NCBI GenBank assembly: GCA_022446965.1
Contig: JAKVBV010000009.1
Location: 1 to 64,000 of the forward strand
Length of the DNA stretch: 64,000 bases
Reading direction: 5' to 3'
DNA from: Phycisphaerales bacterium
GTDB taxonomy: Bacteria > Planctomycetota > Phycisphaerae > Phycisphaerales > SM1A02
The position numbers were made by a program, and so were the translations under genes. Position 1 is the first letter of the stretch; each line of letters starts with the position of its first letter. Below the pieces are notes generated by a model. The model was not told the origin of the DNA. It worked only from the letters and a program-made list of their open reading frames with translations, and searched no databases. Shown here one piece after another: positions 44,394-54,775 of this stretch.

Positions 44394-46493
44394 TCAGCAC
44401 GAACCGCCGAACAGCGCGAGGATCGAAAGAATCTCATCCACGCCGACGTCGCCGTCGCCGTTGAAGTCTTCATCACACCCGTCGCATGAACCGAAGGCAC
44501 TGATCACTGCCAGCAGGTCGTTCACATCGATCATGCCTGAACCGTCAAGATCCTGCGGGCACGTCGGCTCGGACACCTCGTGGGCCCAGGATGCAGCTGG
44601 AATGATCTGCTTGGCCAGCCCCGGGCCGGACCAACGCACGATGAGCCCGGCTCCAGCAGCTTGCTCGAAGAAGTCAACGCGGATGCGGTGACGCCCCTGA
44701 GCCAGACCGATTAACCCGGATCGCTCCTGCATGCCATGCACGCCGTCGTTCTCGACCACGTGCAGGTTGCCTACCCACAGGCCAGAGCCGTCGTCCGACT
44801 CGGTGTAGAAGGTGTAGAGGCCATCCTGCGGGACGTCGACCAACGCGGTGAATCGTGCGCCGACTTCATCACTACGACCAGATCCTGCGAAGGCGCCATT
44901 GGTGCTGGGCAGATTGACTTGTGCCAGCACGCCGTTGAGATAGGAATCCATCTCGTCGTAGTTGGGCAGTGACTGTGGATTGGACAGGATGTAGTACCCC
45001 ACAGCGAGACCATCTTCCAGGTCACCATGTGTGTCGGGTTCACGCAATGAGATCACTTCCACCGTGACGGTGGCTGTCTGCCCATCCGGCAGGGCATACG
45101 TGAACGTATCCACGCCGATGAAATCGACCGCCGGCTCGTAGTGCAGCTGATCGAACGCACCGCCCGACCCAGGCACCAGCGTGATCGTGCCACCAAACGC
45201 CGACTCGGCGTCGAATTCGTCGATCGCCACTTCGGTCTCGTCACACGTGGCACCGGCATCATTGGCCAGCACATTGATGTCGCGGCCGACATTGGGCAGC
45301 GTCCACACGTTGTCGTCCATGGCGACGGCGGCCCCGGCATCCAGACTGCAGTTGTCCGAAATCGCCTCGAGATAGTCAATGATCACCCCGCGTACTTCGT
45401 CGCGGAAGCCAAGTTCGATGTTTGACACACCACCCGGACAAATGTGACAGTACGACATGATCGTGCCGTTCTCTGCGCCGGTGCAATCACCGTTGCCGCA
45501 GTTGTCCAGTGGTGGATTGAAGCCGTCATGGGTGTGCAGCGTGCCGAAGTTGTGACCCAGTTCATGGGCCATCACGAGCAGATCCCAGTTGTCTCCATGA
45601 TTGTTTTGGAGCGGCTGGGGGAACGACCCCTCGATGTACCCAGACACGCCGTAGCCGAAGTTGTTATTGCACAGCACACCAAGCCAAGCGACACCGCCGT
45701 AGGGCAGGTTGGTGCGACCGGTGAGGATATGCGCGATCGTTCGATCGACATCCGTCATCTGGGATGTCCAGTGATTGCGGAACTGATCGAGCATGTCCAC
45801 GCTGCTGTCGGGATCGTAGGGATCGCTGTCGTCAGCCCACGTACGCAGGAATCCAATGCCGAAGCGCACGTTGAGTTCGTTGATGTAGATCTCACTGATC
45901 GCACCGGTCAATGTGACCGCATAGGCCGCGGCGATGTCCGGATCACCATTGAACACACGCTCGGTGAATTCCCAGTCGGTCTCCACCGCGATGGTTGCCG
46001 CCCGACAGGGGAAGTCTTGACCACCACCGCGACGAGGCACAGGCGGTGTCCATCCCGGAGGTGTGCGCACTTCGCATGGCGGAAGTTCAACGGTCGGCTC
46101 GGGCAGCTCGTCAGCCGGCACCGCGGTGACCGCACCGCGTGTCTGTCCCCATGGCCCTGAAGAGATCACATGCATCTGTCCATCAGACTGGCAGAACCCC
46201 GCCACCCCCCACTTGGAGATACCGATGAACCCACTGCTGTCGGCGCCGTCGGTCATGCGCCACATGGTCAAGCCGCCAAGATCCGCTGGTCGCGTGCCCT
46301 GTGCAGAAGCCACCTGCGGCACCACACCGTCTTCCAACACGACCACCTGCTCAAACGACATGGCTTGGATCGAACCATCGAGCGACACGGGCAAGATCTG
46401 CGCTTCGCGAGTGGGATCGAGCCGAATCGGCAACGTGTCCAGCGTGTGCTGCGGTGACACGGCCAATGTGCTGAGCAGTAGATGGGCGAGCAT
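44394..46493 (-). CDS. Secreted reprolysin-like metalloprotease with PA14 and dockerin-like tail
   Basis: The 699-aa protein has a signal peptide (about 1-20) and a propeptide-like region. The M12B-like zinc protease domain (about 160-390) has HELGHNFGTLH near residue 310 and a downstream SYCHIC met-turn-like region. A cadherin/Ig-like domain (about 400-490) precedes a PA14 domain (about 500-630, including YTFYTESDDGSGLWV). The C-terminus carries paired dockerin-like loops (DLDGSGMIDVNDLL and DFNGDGDVGVDEIL). The protease could degrade matrix or external protein. ATG at 46493 has AGGAG upstream; its leader matches the MFS gene leader over 13 bases. Confidence 0.88.
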   Translation of the reverse strand: MLAHLLLSTLAVSPQHTLDTLPIRLDPTREAQILPVSLDGSIQAMSFEQVVVLEDGVVPQVASAQGTRPADLGGLTMWRMTDGADSSGFIGISKWGVAGFCQSDGQMHVISSGPWGQTRGAVTAVPADELPEPTVELPPCEVRTPPGWTPPVPRRGGGQDFPCRAATIAVETDWEFTERVFNGDPDIAAAYAVTLTGAISEIYINELNVRFGIGFLRTWADDSDPYDPDSSVDMLDQFRNHWTSQMTDVDRTIAHILTGRTNLPYGGVAWLGVLCNNNFGYGVSGYIEGSFPQPLQNNHGDNWDLLVMAHELGHNFGTLHTHDGFNPPLDNCGNGDCTGAENGTIMSYCHICPGGVSNIELGFRDEVRGVIIDYLEAISDNCSLDAGAAVAMDDNVWTLPNVGRDINVLANDAGATCDETEVAIDEFDAESAFGGTITLVPGSGGAFDQLHYEPAVDFIGVDTFTYALPDGQTATVTVEVISLREPDTHGDLEDGLAVGYYILSNPQSLPNYDEMDSYLNGVLAQVNLPSTNGAFAGSGRSDEVGARFTALVDVPQDGLYTFYTESDDGSGLWVGNLHVVENDGVHGMQERSGLIGLAQGRHRIRVDFFEQAAGAGLIVRWSGPGLAKQIIPAASWAHEVSEPTCPQDLDGSGMIDVNDLLAVISAFGSCDGCDEDFNGDGDVGVDEILSILALFGGSC

Positions 46494-46683
46494 TGTGGTC
46501 AATCTCCTGATGCACTGACAGTGCAGATCGCCCCTCCCGGCGAACACCCCACCATATCACCGAAATAGCTCGTGTCGAGGCACCATCACCCCGCAATACA
46601 CGCAACGCGGCCTGCAGGCACAGTCACCTGCAGACCGCTCCAGGGGGCCGAGACACCGGACACCCTTGGATGTGCTTGATTCC

Positions 46684-48558
46684 TCAGCCGCCGCGAGGCC
46701 CTTGCCCGGAACCGCCCTGGCCGCCACGGCCTTGACCGCCACCTTGGCCGCCGCGGCCTTGACCGCCACGACCGCCACGGGCCTCACCGCCACCGCGGCC
46801 ACCGCGGCCTTGGAACGCCTCGCGGATGGCTTCGCGTTCTTGTTCGTCAATCTCACCGTCGCCGTTCGTGTCGAACCGCTCCATGAACTGCCGACGCATC
46901 TCTTCGCGATCAGCACCACCACGGCCTTCGCCGCCGCGAGTTCGACGTCCACGCTCCTGCAACGATGACACCTCGGCAATGCGATCTTCGCCCAGCAGAT
47001 CCTTGAGCGCTTCGATGAACTCTTCATCCACTTCGCGACGGGTGTCGTTGGCCATGTCCAGCGGCGTGTCTTCACGCTCGCCACGGCCCATGTCACCACT
47101 GGCCATGCGACGAATGAAGTCCAGCTCGCGTGGCTCTTCGTGCTGGCGAGCAGCAGCGAGCACTCGGGCGTCCTGTTCAGCCATGGCCGCAACGCAGTCG
47201 ATCTGCAGTTCCAGAATGGCCTCACGGAGGTTGTCTTCGAGATCTTCCAACTGCAACGCTTCATCGATGGCGCGAAGCGATCGCGCCTGACGCAACCACC
47301 GGCCGTAGCCTTCACGTTGCGCATCAGCCTGCCACTGGGCGCCCAGTTCTTCGGGCAGCACTGCAGCGATGGCGATGACCGCTTCATCGTTCACGTCACG
47401 CACCGTGCGTTGCAGACGAAGACGATCCAAGCTGATCTTCTCGAGCGCTTCGTAGTCACGGCTGGACATCGCCTCCATGGCGTCGAATCGAGCCGGCGTA
47501 TCGAATGCATCGCGACGCTGCAGTGCATCGTCGACATCGACCGCCCAGTTGTTCACCAGCACATGCACGTTGGCTGCGGTGGTGTCGTCAAGTTGATCGG
47601 CCAACGGACGGACCGACTTCTCCACGTCGAATGACTCGCCAGACACCCGGCCTTCGGGCAACAGACGTTCACGGCGGATACGACGCATGACGTCTTCCCA
47701 CTTGGCAGCCTGATCTTCCGCAAGGATTGCGGCGATCGCCTCTTCGGTCTCGGCATTCATGCCACGACGAACGGCGTCGAACTGCCGATACACCGCACGC
47801 TGCTGCGAGAGGTTGTCCTGCACCGACTCGCTGTCCATGTGTTCCTGCATCGCTTCGCGGAAGCCGCCACGCATGGCATCCATCCGGGCACGGAACTCCT
47901 CACGCATAGCATTGCGTTGTTCTTCGGATATCTGTGTTTCGCCCTCGCCCTCGGAGGCCGATTGGCGGGCAGCACGCATCTCTTCACGCATGGACTCCAT
48001 CTCACCACGGAGTTCCTCGAAGCGTTCCTGTGATTCAGGATTGTTGCGCATCTCCTCGTTCATGTCGCCCACGGCATCACGGGCTTCTTCAGCTGCCATG
48101 CGGAATGCCGCGTCGTAGTCTTCGAGCACGGCCTCGACGATCTGCGATTGCCCTTCGTCGAGATCGAGCATCTCGATGAACACGGGAAGATCGCGGGTCA
48201 TGAACAGCGGGCGGAACATGCCACGGGCCACCATGCCCATTGGGCCACCGCCACCACCTGGGCCGCCGAAGCCACCGCGTTCGCCGCCGCGGCCTCTGCC
48301 TTCACCGCGATCTCCACGCTCACCGCGTTCACCGCGGTCACCTTGCGATCGCATGTGCTCACGCAACGCGTTGCGCTCGTCATCGTTCAGACGACCATCG
48401 CCGTCGGCATCGAATCGTTCCAGCAGCGCTTGGCGTTCGTTGGGGTCGCCGCCGGGGCGTTGCCCATCCTGAGCAAAGGCGGTCGAGACAGCCAGCAAGG
48501 ATGCGGCGCAGGTCAGGCCGGCCAGGACGCCAGCACGATTCAAGGTGGTACGGATCAT
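46684..48558 (-). CDS. Exported EF-hand coiled-coil protein with Gly/Arg-rich tail
   Basis: The 624-aa protein has a signal peptide (about 1-30, ending STAFAQ), an EF-hand-like loop (FDADGDGRLN, about 48-57), a Gly/Arg-rich segment and long charged helices (about 110-560). A second EF-hand loop (FDTNGDGEID, about 567-576) is followed by a Gly/Arg-rich C-terminal tail of GGRGGQ-type repeats. It probably binds calcium in the periplasm. The first EF-hand and its flank match one in the CpxP-like protein at 49777. It is divergent from the ECF sigma operon, suggesting shared regulation. Enzymatic activity is not evident. Confidence 0.8.
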   Translation of the reverse strand: MIRTTLNRAGVLAGLTCAASLLAVSTAFAQDGQRPGGDPNERQALLERFDADGDGRLNDDERNALREHMRSQGDRGERGERGDRGEGRGRGGERGGFGGPGGGGGPMGMVARGMFRPLFMTRDLPVFIEMLDLDEGQSQIVEAVLEDYDAAFRMAAEEARDAVGDMNEEMRNNPESQERFEELRGEMESMREEMRAARQSASEGEGETQISEEQRNAMREEFRARMDAMRGGFREAMQEHMDSESVQDNLSQQRAVYRQFDAVRRGMNAETEEAIAAILAEDQAAKWEDVMRRIRRERLLPEGRVSGESFDVEKSVRPLADQLDDTTAANVHVLVNNWAVDVDDALQRRDAFDTPARFDAMEAMSSRDYEALEKISLDRLRLQRTVRDVNDEAVIAIAAVLPEELGAQWQADAQREGYGRWLRQARSLRAIDEALQLEDLEDNLREAILELQIDCVAAMAEQDARVLAAARQHEEPRELDFIRRMASGDMGRGEREDTPLDMANDTRREVDEEFIEALKDLLGEDRIAEVSSLQERGRRTRGGEGRGGADREEMRRQFMERFDTNGDGEIDEQEREAIREAFQGRGGRGGGEARGGRGGQGRGGQGGGQGRGGQGGSGQGPRGG

Positions 48559-48576
48559 TGGGGTTAGGTCCTCATT

Positions 48577-48617
48577 CCCCCGCACGGGGGCGTGCAAATC
48601 AACGGCGACATGCCGTT
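48577..48617. promoter_or_regulatory. Paired hairpins in the EF-hand/sigma divergent region
   Basis: Two perfect inverted repeats lie in the 163-bp divergent spacer: CCCCC-GCAC-GGGGG (48577-48590) and AACGGC-GACAT-GCCGTT (48601-48617). They could be operator or leader hairpins of the EF-hand gene, whose start is 18 bp away. No promoter hexamers were assigned. Confidence 0.35.
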
Positions 48618-48721
48618 CCGGTCGATTATACGGGGGCGTGGCCCGAGGCCATCCCTGATGAATCGCGATTGCGGGGTACCTTCAGCCCCGCTGAAGACGT
48701 ACAAAACAGGGACACCCGGGT

Positions 48722-49303
48722 GTGCACCGGCCTACAGGCGTGAGCGACAGAACCATCCAATCCGTGGACTTGCAGGCCTGTTTCGACGGGGATGCCGCCG
48801 CGTGGACACAGTTCGTGGAACAGGCCATGGGCCTGGTGATGGGGGCCGTCCGCCGCACCGTGGGCACGCCGCCACCGGGTATTGATCTGGAAGACCTTGC
48901 CCAGCAGGTGTTTGTGCGATTGCTGCAGCATGATTGCCGCCTGCTTCGGACCTATGACCCGGCCCGATCGAAGCTCTCAACCTGGCTTACCATGGTGTCT
49001 CGCTCTGCCACCATCGATGTGCTGCGACGCAAGCGGCTCTCGACAGTGCATGTCGATGCGGCCCTGTCGATCCCCGTGGATGATGAGGCCCCAGAGGTCC
49101 GAGAATCTGCGCTCGCCAATATCCCCACCGAGGTCCTAACGGCCCGGCAGGTGGTGATTCTGCGGCTGCTGTACGACGACGGTCTCGACGTAGCTGAGGT
49201 CGCCCAGGTGCTCGGTGTCGAGGCCCAGACCATTCGCAGCAGCCGTCACAAGGCCATGGTCCGCCTTCGAGCGCACATGGAGGGATGCGAGTGTGAGCAA
49301 TGA
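48722..49303 (+). CDS. ECF-type RNA polymerase sigma factor
   Basis: The 193-aa sigma factor has region 2 (about residues 18-90: QFVEQAMGLVMGAV, DLEDLAQQVFVRLLQ and STWLTMVSRSATIDVLRR) and region 4 (about 130-185, RQVVILRLLYDDGLDVAEVAQVLGVEAQTI by parts, an HTH). GTG at 48722 or GTG at 48740 may be the start. It is followed by an anti-sigma-like membrane protein and a CpxP-like EF-hand protein, so it probably responds to an envelope signal through them. Confidence 0.9.
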   Translation: MHRPTGVSDRTIQSVDLQACFDGDAAAWTQFVEQAMGLVMGAVRRTVGTPPPGIDLEDLAQQVFVRLLQHDCRLLRTYDPARSKLSTWLTMVSRSATIDVLRRKRLSTVHVDAALSIPVDDEAPEVRESALANIPTEVLTARQVVILRLLYDDGLDVAEVAQVLGVEAQTIRSSRHKAMVRLRAHMEGCECEQ

Positions 49304-49339
49304 CCGTAGAACTACACAAGGAGGGGCTACGGCTCAACC

Positions 49340-49780
49340 ATGGCTGAATCACACGCCCAACATGATGATCTGACCCTGGCCAGCCTGGATCCGCAGATGC
49401 TCGCTGACTGGATCGACGACCCCCAGCGGCCGTGTCCGCAGGAGATCATCGACGCCATGGCGGTCGACCCCACGCTGCGATCGATGATTCGAGACCTGCG
49501 GCTTGATCGCTTTCAGGTTGAAGCAGCACCGGCCCACGTCATCGATCGCGCCGCAGCGTTGCAACGACCCACACCCGTACTGGCCACGATCGGCCGCTGG
49601 ACCGCCGCGGCAGCGGCGGCCATCGCCATCGCCGTGGTCGGGTTCCAGCTGGGCACCGCCTCCGCCGGCGTGCAGGCCACCCCCACACAGGATGAATTCG
49701 CTGCCTTCGGCCTCACCCCGATCGACCCGAGCGAATCGCTCATCGCGATGCTCCTTCCCTCAGAGGGCGCCCCCTCATGA
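49340..49780 (+). CDS. Putative anti-sigma factor, single membrane helix
   Basis: The 146-aa protein has a cytoplasmic-type N-terminal helical part (about 1-80), one membrane helix (about 87-108, AAAAAAIAIAVVGFQLG) and a short outer segment. Position right after the ECF sigma gene and topology fit an anti-sigma factor, but no zinc-binding HxxxCxxC motif is visible. Its stop overlaps the next start (ATGA, 49777-49780). The assignment rests mainly on context. Confidence 0.6.
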   Translation: MAESHAQHDDLTLASLDPQMLADWIDDPQRPCPQEIIDAMAVDPTLRSMIRDLRLDRFQVEAAPAHVIDRAAALQRPTPVLATIGRWTAAAAAAIAIAVVGFQLGTASAGVQATPTQDEFAAFGLTPIDPSESLIAMLLPSEGAPS

Positions 49781-50577
49781 ACACGCGAACACTCTTGATC
49801 CTCCTGAGCTTGTCCCTTCTCTTCAATGCCTGCTTCATCGCAGGCTGGATCGGTGCCTCTAATCTGGCCGCCGCTGGTGCCGGAGCAGGCATCGATCGCC
49901 TTGCACAGTCGCTTGAACTGGATGACGTGCAACGCAAGCATCTCGACGAACTGCATGCGTCGATGCGTTCGGAAACTGCCGCCATTCAGGCACACGTCGG
50001 CACGCTGCGTCGACAGCTCGCCCAGGCGCTTGAATCTGATTCACCTGATCTCGAACACGTCCGCACGCTTGTCGCTGACATCTCAGCTGAGCAGCGCGAA
50101 GCACAGATGATCGCGGCCGACCATCTCGGCTCATTCCTCGACATGCTCGATCCCAAGCAGCGTCGAACGCTTGGCCGTCGCCTCGGCCGCGGTGGTCACC
50201 ATCACATGCCGCCCCCGCACGTGCTCGAACCGTACGACGCCGATGACAACGGACAGCTCGACGATGACGAGCTCGCTTCGGCCATGAGCGACATTCGCAG
50301 CCGCCACGAACGTATCCGCGAACGGCAGGCCGAACTGGCTCGTGAGTTCGACGCCGACGGCGACGGACGCCTCAATGGCGAAGAACGCGAGGCCCTCCGC
50401 GCGAAACTCCTCGAAGAAGGCCTCCTCCCACCCCACCATGGCGATCGCGCCGGGCGTGGTGAACGAGGTTCAGGCGAAGGCCGTCGTGGCCCACGTCGCG
50501 GTCGTGGGCAAGGCCGAGGTGGCGAAGCGCCGCCTTCTGGTGACGGACCACCTGCGCAACCTCCACCCACGTTCTGA
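49777..50577 (+). CDS. CpxP/Spy-like periplasmic protein with EF-hand loops
   Basis: The 266-aa protein has an N-terminal signal or anchor (LLILLSLSLLFNACFIAGWIG by parts, about 5-28), a helical CpxP/CnrR-like segment (about 38-125, SLELDDVQRKHLDELHASM) and two EF-hand-like loops (YDADDNGQLD about 150 and FDADGDGRLN about 189). The C-terminus is rich in Gly, Arg and Pro. The FDADGDGRLN-x-x-ER-x-ALR block is nearly identical to one in the divergent gene at 46684. A role as sensor of calcium or envelope stress feeding the sigma factor is inference. Confidence 0.75.
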   Translation: MNTRTLLILLSLSLLFNACFIAGWIGASNLAAAGAGAGIDRLAQSLELDDVQRKHLDELHASMRSETAAIQAHVGTLRRQLAQALESDSPDLEHVRTLVADISAEQREAQMIAADHLGSFLDMLDPKQRRTLGRRLGRGGHHHMPPPHVLEPYDADDNGQLDDDELASAMSDIRSRHERIRERQAELAREFDADGDGRLNGEEREALRAKLLEEGLLPPHHGDRAGRGERGSGEGRRGPRRGRGQGRGGEAPPSGDGPPAQPPPTF

Positions 50578-50585
50578 ACCACGCA

Positions 50586-53462
50586 TCAACGTGACACGAG
50601 CGAGTGCAGCAGCACCATCGGGTGGATCGCCTGCGTATCGAACACATCGTTGATCTGATGGCGACACGATGTGCCGTGGGCCACGATCGTTGACGAGTGC
50701 GCTCGAGCCATGGCCTCGCCAAGAGACTGCCGGGCAATGCGCAGCGATAGATCGTGCGTTTGGGCGTCATAGCCGAACGAGCCCGCCATGCCACAACACC
50801 CACTGTCGAGCAGTTCCACGTCCTCACATCCACAGCGACGCAGCACGGCCTCGACCACCGAGGCCCTGTGCTTCTGATGACAGTGCACATGCACCATCAC
50901 GTGTTTGGTGTAGGTCTCGAACTTAGGGGTACAAGGATGGTCATCCCAGTGGTCGACGAGGAACGACTCCACCGTGTGAGCCATGGTGGTGATGCTTGAC
51001 ACATCCACACCCGTGTTCAGTTCAGCCCACTCCTGCTGCATCGCAGTGGCACACGAGGGCTCGACCGTCACGATACCCACAGCATCGCCCGATGCGAGCC
51101 GGTCGGTGACAGCGGCGCTGCTGCGTCGCACCTGCTGCACGGCCATGTCGAGCACACCGGCGCTGCAGGCTGTCCGGCCACAGCAGTCGGCTTGTTCCAG
51201 CAGTTCCACGCGGTAGCCGAAGGCTTCCAGCACCCCAACCGCGGCCTTGCCGATGTCAGGATCATTCCACATGGTGAAACAGTCTGGGTAGAGCAGCACT
51301 GTCGGCCCGTCCACCGACGAACGATCACGCATCCATCGACCCAGCGACGGCGCAAGCTTCGGCAGTGATCGCGAAGGCGCGACGCCCAACACCCGTTTGA
51401 GAACGCCGGCAATCGGCCATGCCCGCTGCATCAGATTCACCATCGGATACACGGCCGAGCCGAGCCGGTTGAACCGGCGCACCGACGCCTTGAGCCTTGT
51501 GCGCCACGGCACGCCGCCTCGACGCCGCCATCGCTGCGCGTCGTATTCGGCCTTGAGTTTGGTGACATCCACCTGAGACGGGCACTCGTAGCGGCACGCC
51601 TTGCACCCCAGACAAAGCCCGAGAGTGTCCACCGTGTCGGGATCATCGAACGCCGCCTCGCCGGCGGCCACCTGCCCGGTGATGGCCAGTCGCAGCGCGT
51701 TGCCTCGCCCACGCGTGCTGTGACGCTCTTCTCGTGTGGCCCGAAACGACGGACACATCGCGCCGCCACTGCTCCGTCGACACAAGCCTTGCCCGTTGCA
51801 CTGGGCAGCCGCCGCGGGCAGGCCGCCCTCCGTCTCCCAATGGAAGAACGTGTCGATCGACGCGATGTCCTGCTCTTCGTCGATACGAAGAGCAGCCATG
51901 GAGGGCGTCGCCTCGACGATCATGCCTGGATTGAATCGCCCGGAGGGATCGAACAGCGTCTTGATCCGACCAAAGGCGTCCACAATCTGCGGGCCATAGA
52001 ACTCGTGCACGAGCGCGGCGCGAATGCGTCCATCACCGTGTTCACCACTGATGGACCCACCGAATTGTCGCACCAGATCGAGCGCCGAGCGGCCCAGTTC
52101 CAGATACGTGTGCCGTGACTGCTCGTCGTGCAGATCGAGCCGAGGCCGGGCATGCAACAGCCCCACGCTGGCGTGTGCGTACCACGTGGCCTTGAGCCCG
52201 TGTGCTTGGAGCATGGCGGTGAAGGCATCTTGGAACGATGCCAGATGCTCCACAGGGACGGCGCAGTCTTCCAAGCCCGGCACCGGACGGACAGGCGACC
52301 AGTCACCCGAGATCAGCCCCAAACCCACCTTGCGGAGATACCACAGGTCCTTCTGTTCCTGTTCCGTGGATGCGACGACAAGTGGTTCGCCCAAGGCTCG
52401 CAGTGCATCGAGTTTGGCCTGCAAGGCGTCGACTGTGTCCGCAAAACAATCCACGTACAGCACCGCTTCCGGATCATCGCCGTCCACCTGCGGCAGCAGA
52501 TCGACCAGACCAGCGAATGCCTCGTGCGCTCTGGCTCTCGTGATGACGTCGTCATCGAGCAACTCAACTGCAGAGGGTTCGATCTGCAGGATGTCCATCA
52601 TGCGTGCCAACGCCGATGCGACATCGGTGAACCCCAGTACAGCCAAGCCCACGTGCTTTGGAATCGGAACGAGATCCAACTCGATGCCAGTGATGAAGGC
52701 CAGTGTGCCTTCACTACCGCACACCACCCGTGCAGGATTCACTGCGTCCAGCGTGTCCGGCGAGCTCGCCTCGAGTTGGTCAAGCACCAGATCGAGACGG
52801 TAGCCACCGTTGTTGCGCATGACTGCAGGGAAGGTGGATCGAACCTGCGGTTCCACATCCCGCGTGATACGCACGATGTCGGCGACCAGTACCTGCACAC
52901 GAGGATCAGAAGAACCCGCTTCCAATCGAAGCTGTGTGCCGTCTGCGAGCACCACATCGAGTGCACGCACGTGATCTCCAGTCATCCCCCACCACAGTGA
53001 ATGGAGGCCCGCCGAGTTGTTCGCCACCATGCCACCAAGAGTGGCCTGCGCACTCGTGGACACTTCGGCGCCGAAGGTGAGGCCATGGGGCCGCGCCGCT
53101 TCGCGAAGATCATCGAGCACGACACCGGGACCGACCGTCGCCGTGCGGCTGTGCGCCTGAATCTCGATGGTGGTCATGTGCACCGAACAGTCGATGACGA
53201 CGGCGCGATTCACGGTCTGCCCTGCCAACGACGTTCCACCACCTCGCGCCAGCACGGGCAGGCCATTCGCGGCGCACCAGTGCACGGCCGCGCGGACATC
53301 GTCGGCATCAAGCGGCTCGACCACCGCCAATGGCATCACCTGATACGGACTGGCGTCCGTGGCGTAGAGCTGCCGCTCATGCACCGATGTGCGCACGGCG
53401 CCGCGGACGAGTGTCTGCAGTTCCTGTAGCGGGTCACTGTGCTCCACGACGGGCAACTGCAT
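50586..53462 (-). CDS. YdiJ/Dld-type FAD and Fe-S 2-hydroxyacid dehydrogenase
   Basis: The 958-aa protein joins an FAD-binding type 4 domain (ARGGGTSLAGQ near residue 75, then HSLWWGMTGDHV) and an FAD-oxidase C-terminal domain (to about 530). A ferredoxin-like part has two Cys clusters (CNGQGLCRRSSGGAMCPS and CLGCKACRYECPS), and two CCG domains close the protein (DCCGRTACSAG and SGCCGMAGSFG). This layout is that of D-2-hydroxyglutarate or D-lactate dehydrogenases of the YdiJ type (about 1000 aa). ATG at 53462 shares TGATG with the NRAMP-like stop. The frame extends upstream without homology. Confidence 0.9.
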   Translation of the reverse strand: MQLPVVEHSDPLQELQTLVRGAVRTSVHERQLYATDASPYQVMPLAVVEPLDADDVRAAVHWCAANGLPVLARGGGTSLAGQTVNRAVVIDCSVHMTTIEIQAHSRTATVGPGVVLDDLREAARPHGLTFGAEVSTSAQATLGGMVANNSAGLHSLWWGMTGDHVRALDVVLADGTQLRLEAGSSDPRVQVLVADIVRITRDVEPQVRSTFPAVMRNNGGYRLDLVLDQLEASSPDTLDAVNPARVVCGSEGTLAFITGIELDLVPIPKHVGLAVLGFTDVASALARMMDILQIEPSAVELLDDDVITRARAHEAFAGLVDLLPQVDGDDPEAVLYVDCFADTVDALQAKLDALRALGEPLVVASTEQEQKDLWYLRKVGLGLISGDWSPVRPVPGLEDCAVPVEHLASFQDAFTAMLQAHGLKATWYAHASVGLLHARPRLDLHDEQSRHTYLELGRSALDLVRQFGGSISGEHGDGRIRAALVHEFYGPQIVDAFGRIKTLFDPSGRFNPGMIVEATPSMAALRIDEEQDIASIDTFFHWETEGGLPAAAAQCNGQGLCRRSSGGAMCPSFRATREERHSTRGRGNALRLAITGQVAAGEAAFDDPDTVDTLGLCLGCKACRYECPSQVDVTKLKAEYDAQRWRRRGGVPWRTRLKASVRRFNRLGSAVYPMVNLMQRAWPIAGVLKRVLGVAPSRSLPKLAPSLGRWMRDRSSVDGPTVLLYPDCFTMWNDPDIGKAAVGVLEAFGYRVELLEQADCCGRTACSAGVLDMAVQQVRRSSAAVTDRLASGDAVGIVTVEPSCATAMQQEWAELNTGVDVSSITTMAHTVESFLVDHWDDHPCTPKFETYTKHVMVHVHCHQKHRASVVEAVLRRCGCEDVELLDSGCCGMAGSFGYDAQTHDLSLRIARQSLGEAMARAHSSTIVAHGTSCRHQINDVFDTQAIHPMVLLHSLVSR

Positions 53463-54775
53463 CACGCCACCCACGAGTAGATGCGAAGGACCACATAAAA
53501 CACCGCGAAGGCCGACAGGCACAGCACGCTGAGCAACGAATACCACCGCATCGCAGGTGAAAGGCGATGGGCCTCGGGCATGGCCGCAGACGTGACCACA
53601 CGATGATTGAGCAGTGCCAGCACCGGCGCGGTGAGGAATGACGCCACCGTGGCCACGTCGACCACCAGGAGAAACGCATTGCTCAGCACCTGCAGCAGCA
53701 CGAGAGCGCCGCCAGCCAGCAGCACCATGCCGCGCACGTACCACGTCGATCGCTCGCCCCCTTCCGGCGCCACGCTGAACCCATCTTCAGTTTCAGGGCT
53801 CGTGAACCGCTGTACCAACACGCTGAGCACGCGCGGGAAGCCGTCCAACACGGCAACCGTGGTCGAGACCATCACTGCCAAGGCCGCAGCCGATACGACC
53901 CACCCCGCCCACGGACCGATCGTGGTGGCGTACAGATCGATGAAGAAGCCCGGATAGGCCGTCGCGGTCGCTGGAAACTCGGCGCCGGTGGAGGCCATCG
54001 CGGCGCCGAGGATGAGAAAGCAGAACGCCAGCACACCGGTGGCGACGTAACCCACGTTAAAGTCGAAGACGACCTCGCCCACACTCAATCGCTGGTTTTG
54101 TGATCTGCCTCGGGCCAACACCCACAGGGACTGCCAGGCGGAAATGTCCACGGCAGTCGGCATCCAGCCGATGAGGGCCGCAATGAAGGCGATGGTGGAT
54201 ACCTGCTCAAGCGTCATCATGGACGGGAGCAGCGGGCCTGGATCTGACCACACACGAGGCAGCACCACTGCTGTGGCCACCACCGTCAACAGGGTGAAGA
54301 ATGGCACCAGGATCTTGGTGAGTCTGTCCAACCAGACGTAGCCGCCGTACAACAGCATCCCCGCACATGACGCCAGCAGCAGTCCATTGAGCCACGGTAT
54401 CCCGGGCGAGGGCATGCCGAGGCGTTCCAATTGCCCGTGCAACAAGGCCGAGGTCACGATGGTGACGGCGGCCTGCACCGCGAACATCGTGAGCACCGTG
54501 AGCACCGCAAACAGCCACAAGGTCCACGGCCCGAGCCTTCGGTAGCCCTCCAGCAGCGACTTGCCGGTGGCCGCCGACCACACCGGGCCGAAGCGAAACG
54601 GCGGGTACTTGAGGACGAGCGCGAGCAGGATGAACACCCACAACGCCAGTCCCCAGTCCGTTCCAGCCCGAGCAGACTGCACAAGATGCGACACGCCGAC
54701 AGATGTGCCGGCGAAGATCAATCCCGGTCCGAGTGCGGCCAATGAGCGGACGGATGATGCGCGTGGTGTCGTCAC
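53462..54775 (-). CDS. NRAMP-like transporter lacking the DPGN and MPH motifs
   Basis: The 437-aa protein has about 11 membrane helices and the NRAMP-type first helix (LGPGLIFAGTSVGVSHLVQS). The metal-binding DPGN of true Nramp proteins is replaced by GVSH, and the helix 6 M-P-H motif reads MPTAVD. A divergent Nramp-related clade is therefore likely, and the ion may not be Mn or Fe. Its stop overlaps the YdiJ-type dehydrogenase start, and it follows the dcyD-like gene by 48 bp. Confidence 0.85.
   Translation of the reverse strand: MTTPRASSVRSLAALGPGLIFAGTSVGVSHLVQSARAGTDWGLALWVFILLALVLKYPPFRFGPVWSAATGKSLLEGYRRLGPWTLWLFAVLTVLTMFAVQAAVTIVTSALLHGQLERLGMPSPGIPWLNGLLLASCAGMLLYGGYVWLDRLTKILVPFFTLLTVVATAVVLPRVWSDPGPLLPSMMTLEQVSTIAFIAALIGWMPTAVDISAWQSLWVLARGRSQNQRLSVGEVVFDFNVGYVATGVLAFCFLILGAAMASTGAEFPATATAYPGFFIDLYATTIGPWAGWVVSAAALAVMVSTTVAVLDGFPRVLSVLVQRFTSPETEDGFSVAPEGGERSTWYVRGMVLLAGGALVLLQVLSNAFLLVVDVATVASFLTAPVLALLNHRVVTSAAMPEAHRLSPAMRWYSLLSVLCLSAFAVFYVVLRIYSWVA

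Follow-up and report, generated by a model that had tools for sequence, protein, structure and literature searches.

We describe a predicted envelope sigma factor module at positions 46684–50577 of the window, a stretch of 64,000 nt on contig C102 of a 2.24-Mb Phycisphaerales genome. The locus holds the gene for an extracytoplasmic function (ECF) sigma factor (48740–49303, + strand, GTG start), followed by genes for an anti-sigma-like protein with one transmembrane (TM) helix (P0003, 49340–49780, +) and for a putative membrane-anchored sensor of the Spy/CpxP/CnrX type (P0004, 49777–50577, +, 266 aa). The start of P0004 overlaps the stop of P0003 by 4 bases, and the three genes form one operon. 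Divergent to it lies the gene for an exported protein and predicted sigma target (P0001, 46684–48558, −, 624 aa). The nearest named relatives are metagenome-assembled genomes (MAGs) titled Phycisphaerales, several of them from ocean samples according to their titles.

The sigma protein contains sigma70 regions 2 and 4 (PF04542 and PF04545) above the cut-offs and scores 69.7 bits with TIGR02937 (cut-off 42.9). P0003 consists, as judged by eye, of a cytoplasmic part, one TM helix and a short outer tail. It matches no Pfam family at E ≤ 0.1; there is no zf-HC2 match and the zinc-finger cysteines are absent, which sets it apart from the zf-HC2 zinc-binding anti-sigma (ZAS) factors. The likeness to that class lies in its relatives: P0003 relatives in four other genera carry zf-HC2 above the cut-off (4/6 proteins scanned), and phmmer with P0003 as query matches two such zf-HC2-bearing proteins (E-values of 5e-6 and 7e-5). 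P0003 is best read as a candidate zinc-finger-type anti-sigma that has lost its cysteines.

P0004 matches Metal_resist (PF13801; 49810–50166, +) with 42.4 bits, above the curated cut-off of 29.2, over a region that takes in part of the N-terminal membrane helix. It also matches LTXXQ (PF07813) with 29.8 bits (cut-off 24.3). The Spy-type domain is followed by a pair of EF-hands scoring slightly under the Pfam cut-offs (loop 1, aa 154–165, 50236–50271, +; loop 2, aa 192–203, 50350–50385, +) and by a Gly/Arg-rich tail (50443–50541, +) with low values in the predicted local distance difference test (pLDDT). The AlphaFold2 (AF2) model, based on 35 aligned sensors (mean pLDDT 82.5), displays a long N-terminal helix, a Spy-like antiparallel helical core and the EF-hand pair. 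The membrane helices of sensor and anti-sigma were judged by eye, that of the sensor also from the AF2 helix. Foldseek related the core to Spy (probability 0.99), CpxP (0.99) and CnrX (0.94), all with E-values above 0.1, and VIA-align 2 placed CnrX on top with a maximum Z of 7.5, a value within the tool's warning range and not conclusive for helical bundles. A core-only profile, used since the whole-sensor profile was swamped by calmodulin, matched the PDB sequences of an STV (VirG-like) protein (4e-8), Spy (4e-5), CpxP (0.012) and ZraP (0.016). Invariant columns in the core of 25 sensors are L, S, N, F and Q, and His is present in the linker and tail of many sensors. Model and matches together indicate that P0004 is a membrane-anchored sensor of the Spy/CpxP/CnrX fold class with an EF-hand pair.

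P0001 is organized into a signal peptide (by eye), an N-terminal EF-hand block (F49–R66, 48361–48414, −), a helical region, a C-terminal EF-hand (46837–46890, −) and a Gly/Arg-rich tail (46687–46806, −; low pLDDT). The stretch from aa 97 to 200 (47959–48270, −) is Spy/Metal_resist-like, with a match of 28.7 bits just under the Metal_resist cut-off of 29.2. Its AF2 model (mean pLDDT 78.1, predicted template modelling score 0.69) had no usable PDB match, which we do not hold against a Spy origin. We regard P0001 as a periplasmic, Spy-like EF-hand protein whose role is probably to buffer metal or to protect proteins.

The first-pass annotation had pointed to a nearly identical EF-hand block and to Gly/Arg-rich tails in the products of the divergent and the third gene. 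Both are present: F49–R66 in P0001 and EF-hand 2 in P0004 are identical in 15 of 18 residues, and the tails, modelled with low confidence, form the C-terminal ends of both proteins. The loops in both follow the 12-residue D-x-D-x-D/N-G...E spacing that is the rule for canonical EF-hands, and single EF-hand Pfam models score just under their cut-offs. The 15 identical residues use the same codon in only five cases, and 38/54 nt are identical, which rules out a recent duplication or gene conversion of the block. A comparison of sensor and divergent-protein EF-hands in 20 loci gave a mean identity of 9.75/19 within and 9.36/19 between loci (permutation p = 0.09). Since the codons differ and there is no excess likeness within loci, the near-identity is EF-hand consensus rather than recent copying, and is in itself not evidence for a special link between the two proteins. 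The first-pass annotation would have been refuted by a block that many unrelated proteins of the genome share, but such a spread was rejected for this genome, and the occurrence of EF-hands in precisely these two proteins is not trivial: with PF13499, P0004 (28.8 bits) and P0001 (21.2 bits) were the top two of 14 matches at E ≤ 1, the next scoring 15.7, and P0004 as query matched, besides itself, P0001 alone at E ≤ 1e-5. Certain other genomes in the class do have many EF-hand matches. Probably, the EF-hands are modules stabilised by calcium that sensor and targets share, and not the primary signal input.

Among 61 genomes, our own included, P0001 has matches in 47, P0004 in 14 and P0003 in eight. 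A sigma profile search yielded 45 named loci, and the arrangement of sigma, anti-sigma and TM/Spy sensor recurs in relatives. A P0001 relative lies divergent to the sigma operon in 23 of the 45. At L167–L170 and L182, the divergent gene encodes a redoxin-like protein with EF-hands (by Pfam for L167, by resemblance for the others), and at L167–L170 an EF-less P0001 relative is found downstream of the sensor. Sensors with EF-hands were found in 33 named loci and sensors without them in seven, while five were not judgeable (L164, L165, L179, L183, L188); complete EF-less sensors are also present in genomes G011 and G017. In the sigma tree (rooted at the midpoint, with five long branches and 11/39 forks open), EF-less sensors are found mostly in the outer regions; the tree labels L165 and L183 as EF loci though no sensor was seen at either. 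This sigma group also occurs in records titled Alphaproteobacteria, Oceanobacillus or Actinomycetes (L175, L178, L165, L166), with a sensor in L175, L178 and L166 and none seen in L165; such titles may reflect mislabelled bins, contamination or transfer.

By eye, the spacers of the sigma loci yielded a promoter signature, GGGAT(G/A)-N16/17-CGTA. The locus contains it twice as GGGATG-N17-CGTA, at 48629–48655 (−) facing P0001 and at 49282–49308 (+) spanning the sigma 3' end, upstream of anti-sigma and sensor. Sigma-dependent promoters on both sides of the divergent spacer had been suggested as a point to check, and the comparison does place one copy of the signature ahead of the divergent gene and another ahead of the anti-sigma/sensor pair. 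We scored 43 loci, namely the window, 41 of the 45 named loci and L106 of G011; L163, L187, L188 and L189 were dropped because the sigma gene or its upstream region was missing or fragmentary. The set includes the near-copies L150/L151, L167–L169 and L158/L159, as well as several of the G-numbered genomes. A site faces the divergent gene in 28/43 loci (200 dinucleotide shuffles: mean 0.26, maximum 2) and lies at the sigma/anti-sigma junction in 35/43 (200 shuffles: mean 0.025, maximum 1); the junction sites had not been used in finding the motif. The 28 divergent sites face P0001-type genes in 23 cases (window included), redoxin/EF-hand genes in four and no assigned gene in one. No gene was assignable to a reverse-strand site of L154 (G023).

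At L167–L170 the site was kept despite the swap of the divergent gene for redoxin/EF-hand genes, and the exact site is absent at L155, a named locus with a divergent P0001 relative, and at L182 with its redoxin/EF-hand gene. Five loci with EF-less sensors have the junction site (L166, L175, L177, L181 and that of G011). The two tested regions account for 68 of 73 pattern matches in 482 kb. A site ahead of the sigma gene itself is rare (5/43 loci, one of them 481 bases away), so that the sigma was rejected as a regular target of its own. Of 62 distinct sites, 56 have a spacer of 16, 49 an extra G and 46 an A two bases past CGTA, at positions outside the pattern's demands. Comparison of these sequences makes a strong case that the sigma recognises (G)GGGATG/A-N16(17)-CGTA. 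G014 has a second promoter site (contig C17:9885–9910) identical to that of L167–L169, which suggests that the module is present there in a second copy or that the bin is chimeric. At L252 (G034), a different ECF sigma is accompanied by a Spy-type TM sensor with a GR-rich tail and the motif is absent; the sensor class may serve more than one sigma group.

The site also follows the sigma at unlinked P0001 homologues. Sigma presence is clear-cut where tested, with at least 188 bits in five carriers and at most 78.6 in 21 other genomes. Where the best homologue of a genome is unlinked, it has the site in 4/5 sigma genomes (G016, G017, G023 and G024, not G011) and in 0/17 genomes without the sigma (p = 0.0007); these 17 exclude G035 (L089, upstream region off the contig), and some of their homologues are short and have neither EF-hand nor tail. 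In G023, the site is also present at an unlinked gene for an EF-hand protein. A P0001-like paralogue in our own genome, L109 (G000:C36, 8225–9631, −), and L397–L416 are mostly about 460–600 aa long and mostly lack EF-hands or strong Gly/Arg tails; none has the site, and we read them as a second, differently controlled branch of the P0001 family. As most unlinked paralogues lack the site (21 further ones, and L109), the notion that every P0001-like gene is a target was rejected, and the predicted target is one branch of the family.

Distal targets were scored on 87 sites, comprising those outside the module in seven genomes (G000, G001, G002, G006, G009, G024 and G036), minus those near stretch ends, and 11 chosen sites from G014, G022 and G023. 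A site precedes both a PSCyt1 Planctomycete cytochrome gene, encoding a Gly/Arg tail, and a DUF1800 gene in six of the seven sigma genomes (all except G024), which span four genera. For DUF1800, the site is present at 9/15 genes of sigma genomes and 0/13 of others (p = 0.0008); among the 13, L349 has a short upstream region and L353 an incomplete start. Redoxin genes carry it in G006, G009, G014 and G022, two of their products having an N-terminal Spy-like stretch (by eye), and a YHYH gene (Pfam) does so in G000 and G001. At L326 (G006:C22), two sites on opposite strands overlap (5446, +, and 5476, −), one of which faces a redoxin gene. The targets combine modules in several ways: Spy-like with EF-hand, redoxin with EF-hand, Spy-like with redoxin, and cytochrome with Gly/Arg tail. 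DUF1800 is followed by DUF1501 in G000 (Pfam), G006 and G036 (both by resemblance), and is preceded by a copper-type P-type ATPase (TIGR01511 above cut-off) in the same genomes, representing the three genera examined. Downstream of DUF1800/DUF1501 in G000 lie genes for an HMA-domain protein, an NHL protein and a di-haem cytochrome peroxidase (MauG-type). The conserved motif targets include no resistance-nodulation-division (RND) metal efflux operon, not all single non-conserved sites being annotated.

These comparisons support the module, the promoter signature, the feedback layout and several targets; the release mechanism and the signal are our inference. In the resting cell, the one-TM anti-sigma would hold the ECF sigma, with the Spy/CnrX-fold sensor beside it on the outer face. 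A change in the sensor, brought about by a signal at the envelope, would then free the sigma; the likeliest signals are an excess of copper or of a different transition metal, or redox or misfolding stress linked to it. The freed sigma is predicted to transcribe P0001 from the GGGAT(G/A)-CGTA site, and likewise the unlinked exported proteins, PSCyt1 cytochrome and DUF1800; in some species, redoxins, the YHYH protein and another EF-hand protein would be added. From the promoter at its own 3' end, it would also drive anti-sigma and sensor and so raise its own brake, a negative feedback. In our judgement, the locus is quite probably a CnrYXH-like envelope stress switch with negative feedback over exported redox/copper-associated proteins. 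We are highly confident of the circuit when the signal is left aside, and give even chances to copper, metal or redox as the signal. Copper or redox stress is favoured because of the copper/redox neighbours of the predicted targets. A calcium- or metal-sensing envelope circuit had seemed plausible to the first-pass annotation. Its envelope sigma/anti-sigma circuit is well supported by the shared promoter signature, and metal sensing stays plausible given the fold class of the third gene product and a predicted target that neighbours a copper-type ATPase in three genera. Less well founded is calcium detection through the EF-hands, as EF-less sensors occur in the same sigma group.

Several points weigh against this reading. 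Every regulatory step is deduced from sequence, and the motif was first seen in these very spacers, so that, of the sites, only those at the junction, at unlinked genes and at distal targets do not depend on how it was found. Genome-wide, G000 has 12 pattern matches against 8 for the reversed control; most single matches are therefore chance, and only conserved ones count. Nine sigma genomes hold another 21 unlinked P0001-like genes, none with the site, and over all unlinked P0001 homologues examined in sigma genomes (L109 included) it is present at 4/26. G011 carries the sigma, yet its best P0001 homologue lacks the site, and DUF1800 is without it in G011, G017, G022, G024 and both G023 copies. 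The copper ATPase lies upstream of the site and is not under its control. On the structural side, Foldseek E-values all exceed 0.1, and the VIA Z of at most 7.5 is in the range that the tool warns of for helical bundles. The Spy part of 25 sensors has no invariant or nearly invariant His or Met column, and a CnrX-type site thus appears not to be conserved.

Among the alternatives, a calcium switch would have the sensor EF-hands report periplasmic calcium, a fall or rise of which frees the sigma, with P0001 as calcium buffer, as proposed for CaBP-SigV. Canonical EF-hand loops in both sensor and target and EF-hand sensors in 33/45 named loci are in line with it, as is the induction of Caulobacter cabp through SigV by the chelator EGTA described in the accessible part of PMC13171946. 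Calcium alone becomes less likely because complete EF-less sensors occur in the same sigma group (7/45 named loci, G011 and G017), with the junction promoter kept in four of the seven and in G011. Moreover, calcium transporters are not among the conserved distal targets, which are genes for cytochrome, redoxin and DUF1800 proteins, and calcium in seawater is high and steady. We consider calcium improbable as the primary signal. The sensor could instead serve a general envelope-misfolding response of the CpxP/Spy type, its Spy domain binding unfolded proteins and metals mattering only via protein damage. This would fit the best PDB sequence matches of its core, to the STV (VirG-like) protein and to Spy, a chaperone (CpxP follows lower), and also the Spy-like stretches in the divergent target; however, the conserved distal targets are redox/copper-associated and not classic folding factors, and this explanation too seems unlikely to us.

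Mere synteny would make the divergent gene an unrelated neighbour and the motif another regulator's site or a general promoter. In its favour, a gene for an FAD oxidase on the flank is likewise kept in the vicinity (scan of 21 stretches, in which several genomes count twice), and unlinked P0001 paralogues mostly lack the site. Nevertheless, the site tracks the sigma both at the best homologues (4/5 against 0/17) and at DUF1800 (9/15 against 0/13), and it outlives the swap of the divergent gene, which makes synteny a very improbable account. A further idea is domain mimicry: the sensor bears the Spy and EF-hand/Gly-Arg-tail modules of its targets, and could read the amount of free exported protein by competition for ligand or surface. 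We regard this as a speculative suggestion with a small chance of being right; if true, the modules would move as a kit among the targets, and the shared cassette would be a regulon-wide tag, not a calcium detector.

The switch that we favour can be compared with several known systems. The periplasmic proteins CpxP, Spy and ZraP, which serve two-component systems, have their fold class in common with the sensor core and, less clearly, with part of P0001; in our locus, a tethered form of the domain goes with an ECF sigma. In CnrYXH, CnrX is membrane-anchored and the operon is arranged in the order anti-sigma, sensor, sigma; CnrX has a His/Glu/Met metal site, and the system controls an RND metal efflux operon. 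Our locus differs by its order (sigma, anti-sigma, sensor), an anti-sigma of putative zinc-finger descent instead of the CnrY type, the EF-hand pair on the sensor, the promoter at the sigma 3' end and exported redox proteins as predicted targets. Like this cobalt/nickel system of Cupriavidus metallidurans, it encodes an ECF sigma together with a one-TM anti-sigma and a periplasmic sensor of Spy/CnrX fold that is anchored in the membrane, and CnrX metal binding is thought to switch CnrY (PMC4598750, in the part accessible). CaBP-SigV of Caulobacter vibrioides likewise pairs a periplasmic EF-hand protein with an ECF sigma, and this sigma activates the gene of the EF-hand protein. There, the protein is soluble, has 133 aa and three EF-hands, and sigV lies downstream, in contrast to the TM-anchored Spy-fold sensor, anti-sigma gene and divergent Spy-like EF-hand target found here; the promoter elements also differ (GGAAA-13-CGTTCA in Caulobacter; accessible part of PMC13171946). 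The accessible sections of a review (PMC8103513) mention planctomycete and metal-responsive ECFs but not the arrangement of this locus. In the open-licence literature, which leaves most subscription papers outside the search, we found neither work on an EF-hand/Spy-fold ECF module in Planctomycetes nor a copper link of DUF1800/DUF1501. An existing ECF group number may apply to this sigma.

The locus is flanked by two further genes. Adjoining P0001 is a gene for a secreted reprolysin-type metalloprotease with PA14 and a dockerin-like end (44394–46547, −). In some relatives, this position is taken by one homologue or by two, and in L147 by a subtilase with a dockerin end. We set aside the dockerin-type repeats as part of the EF-hand cassette, since they belong to another motif class and the protease is a neighbour in some relatives only. 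On the other side, a flavin adenine dinucleotide (FAD)-linked oxidase/iron-sulphur protein gene (50586–53744, −) is conserved downstream of the sensor in relatives, within the scan of 21 stretches given above.

Planctomycetes have many ECF sigma factors with few known signals, and the loci of this group come mostly from uncultured genomes, as their MAG titles indicate. For one such sigma, a predicted promoter sequence and a feedback layout are now at hand, together with candidate targets that recur across genera and a candidate class of signal. Proteins whose functions are little known, namely DUF1800 (with DUF1501 following it in G000, G006 and G036), YHYH and PSCyt1, are thereby placed in a predicted envelope redox/copper response. 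The marine Phycisphaerales, an otherwise unstudied ocean group, gain a testable envelope stress response.

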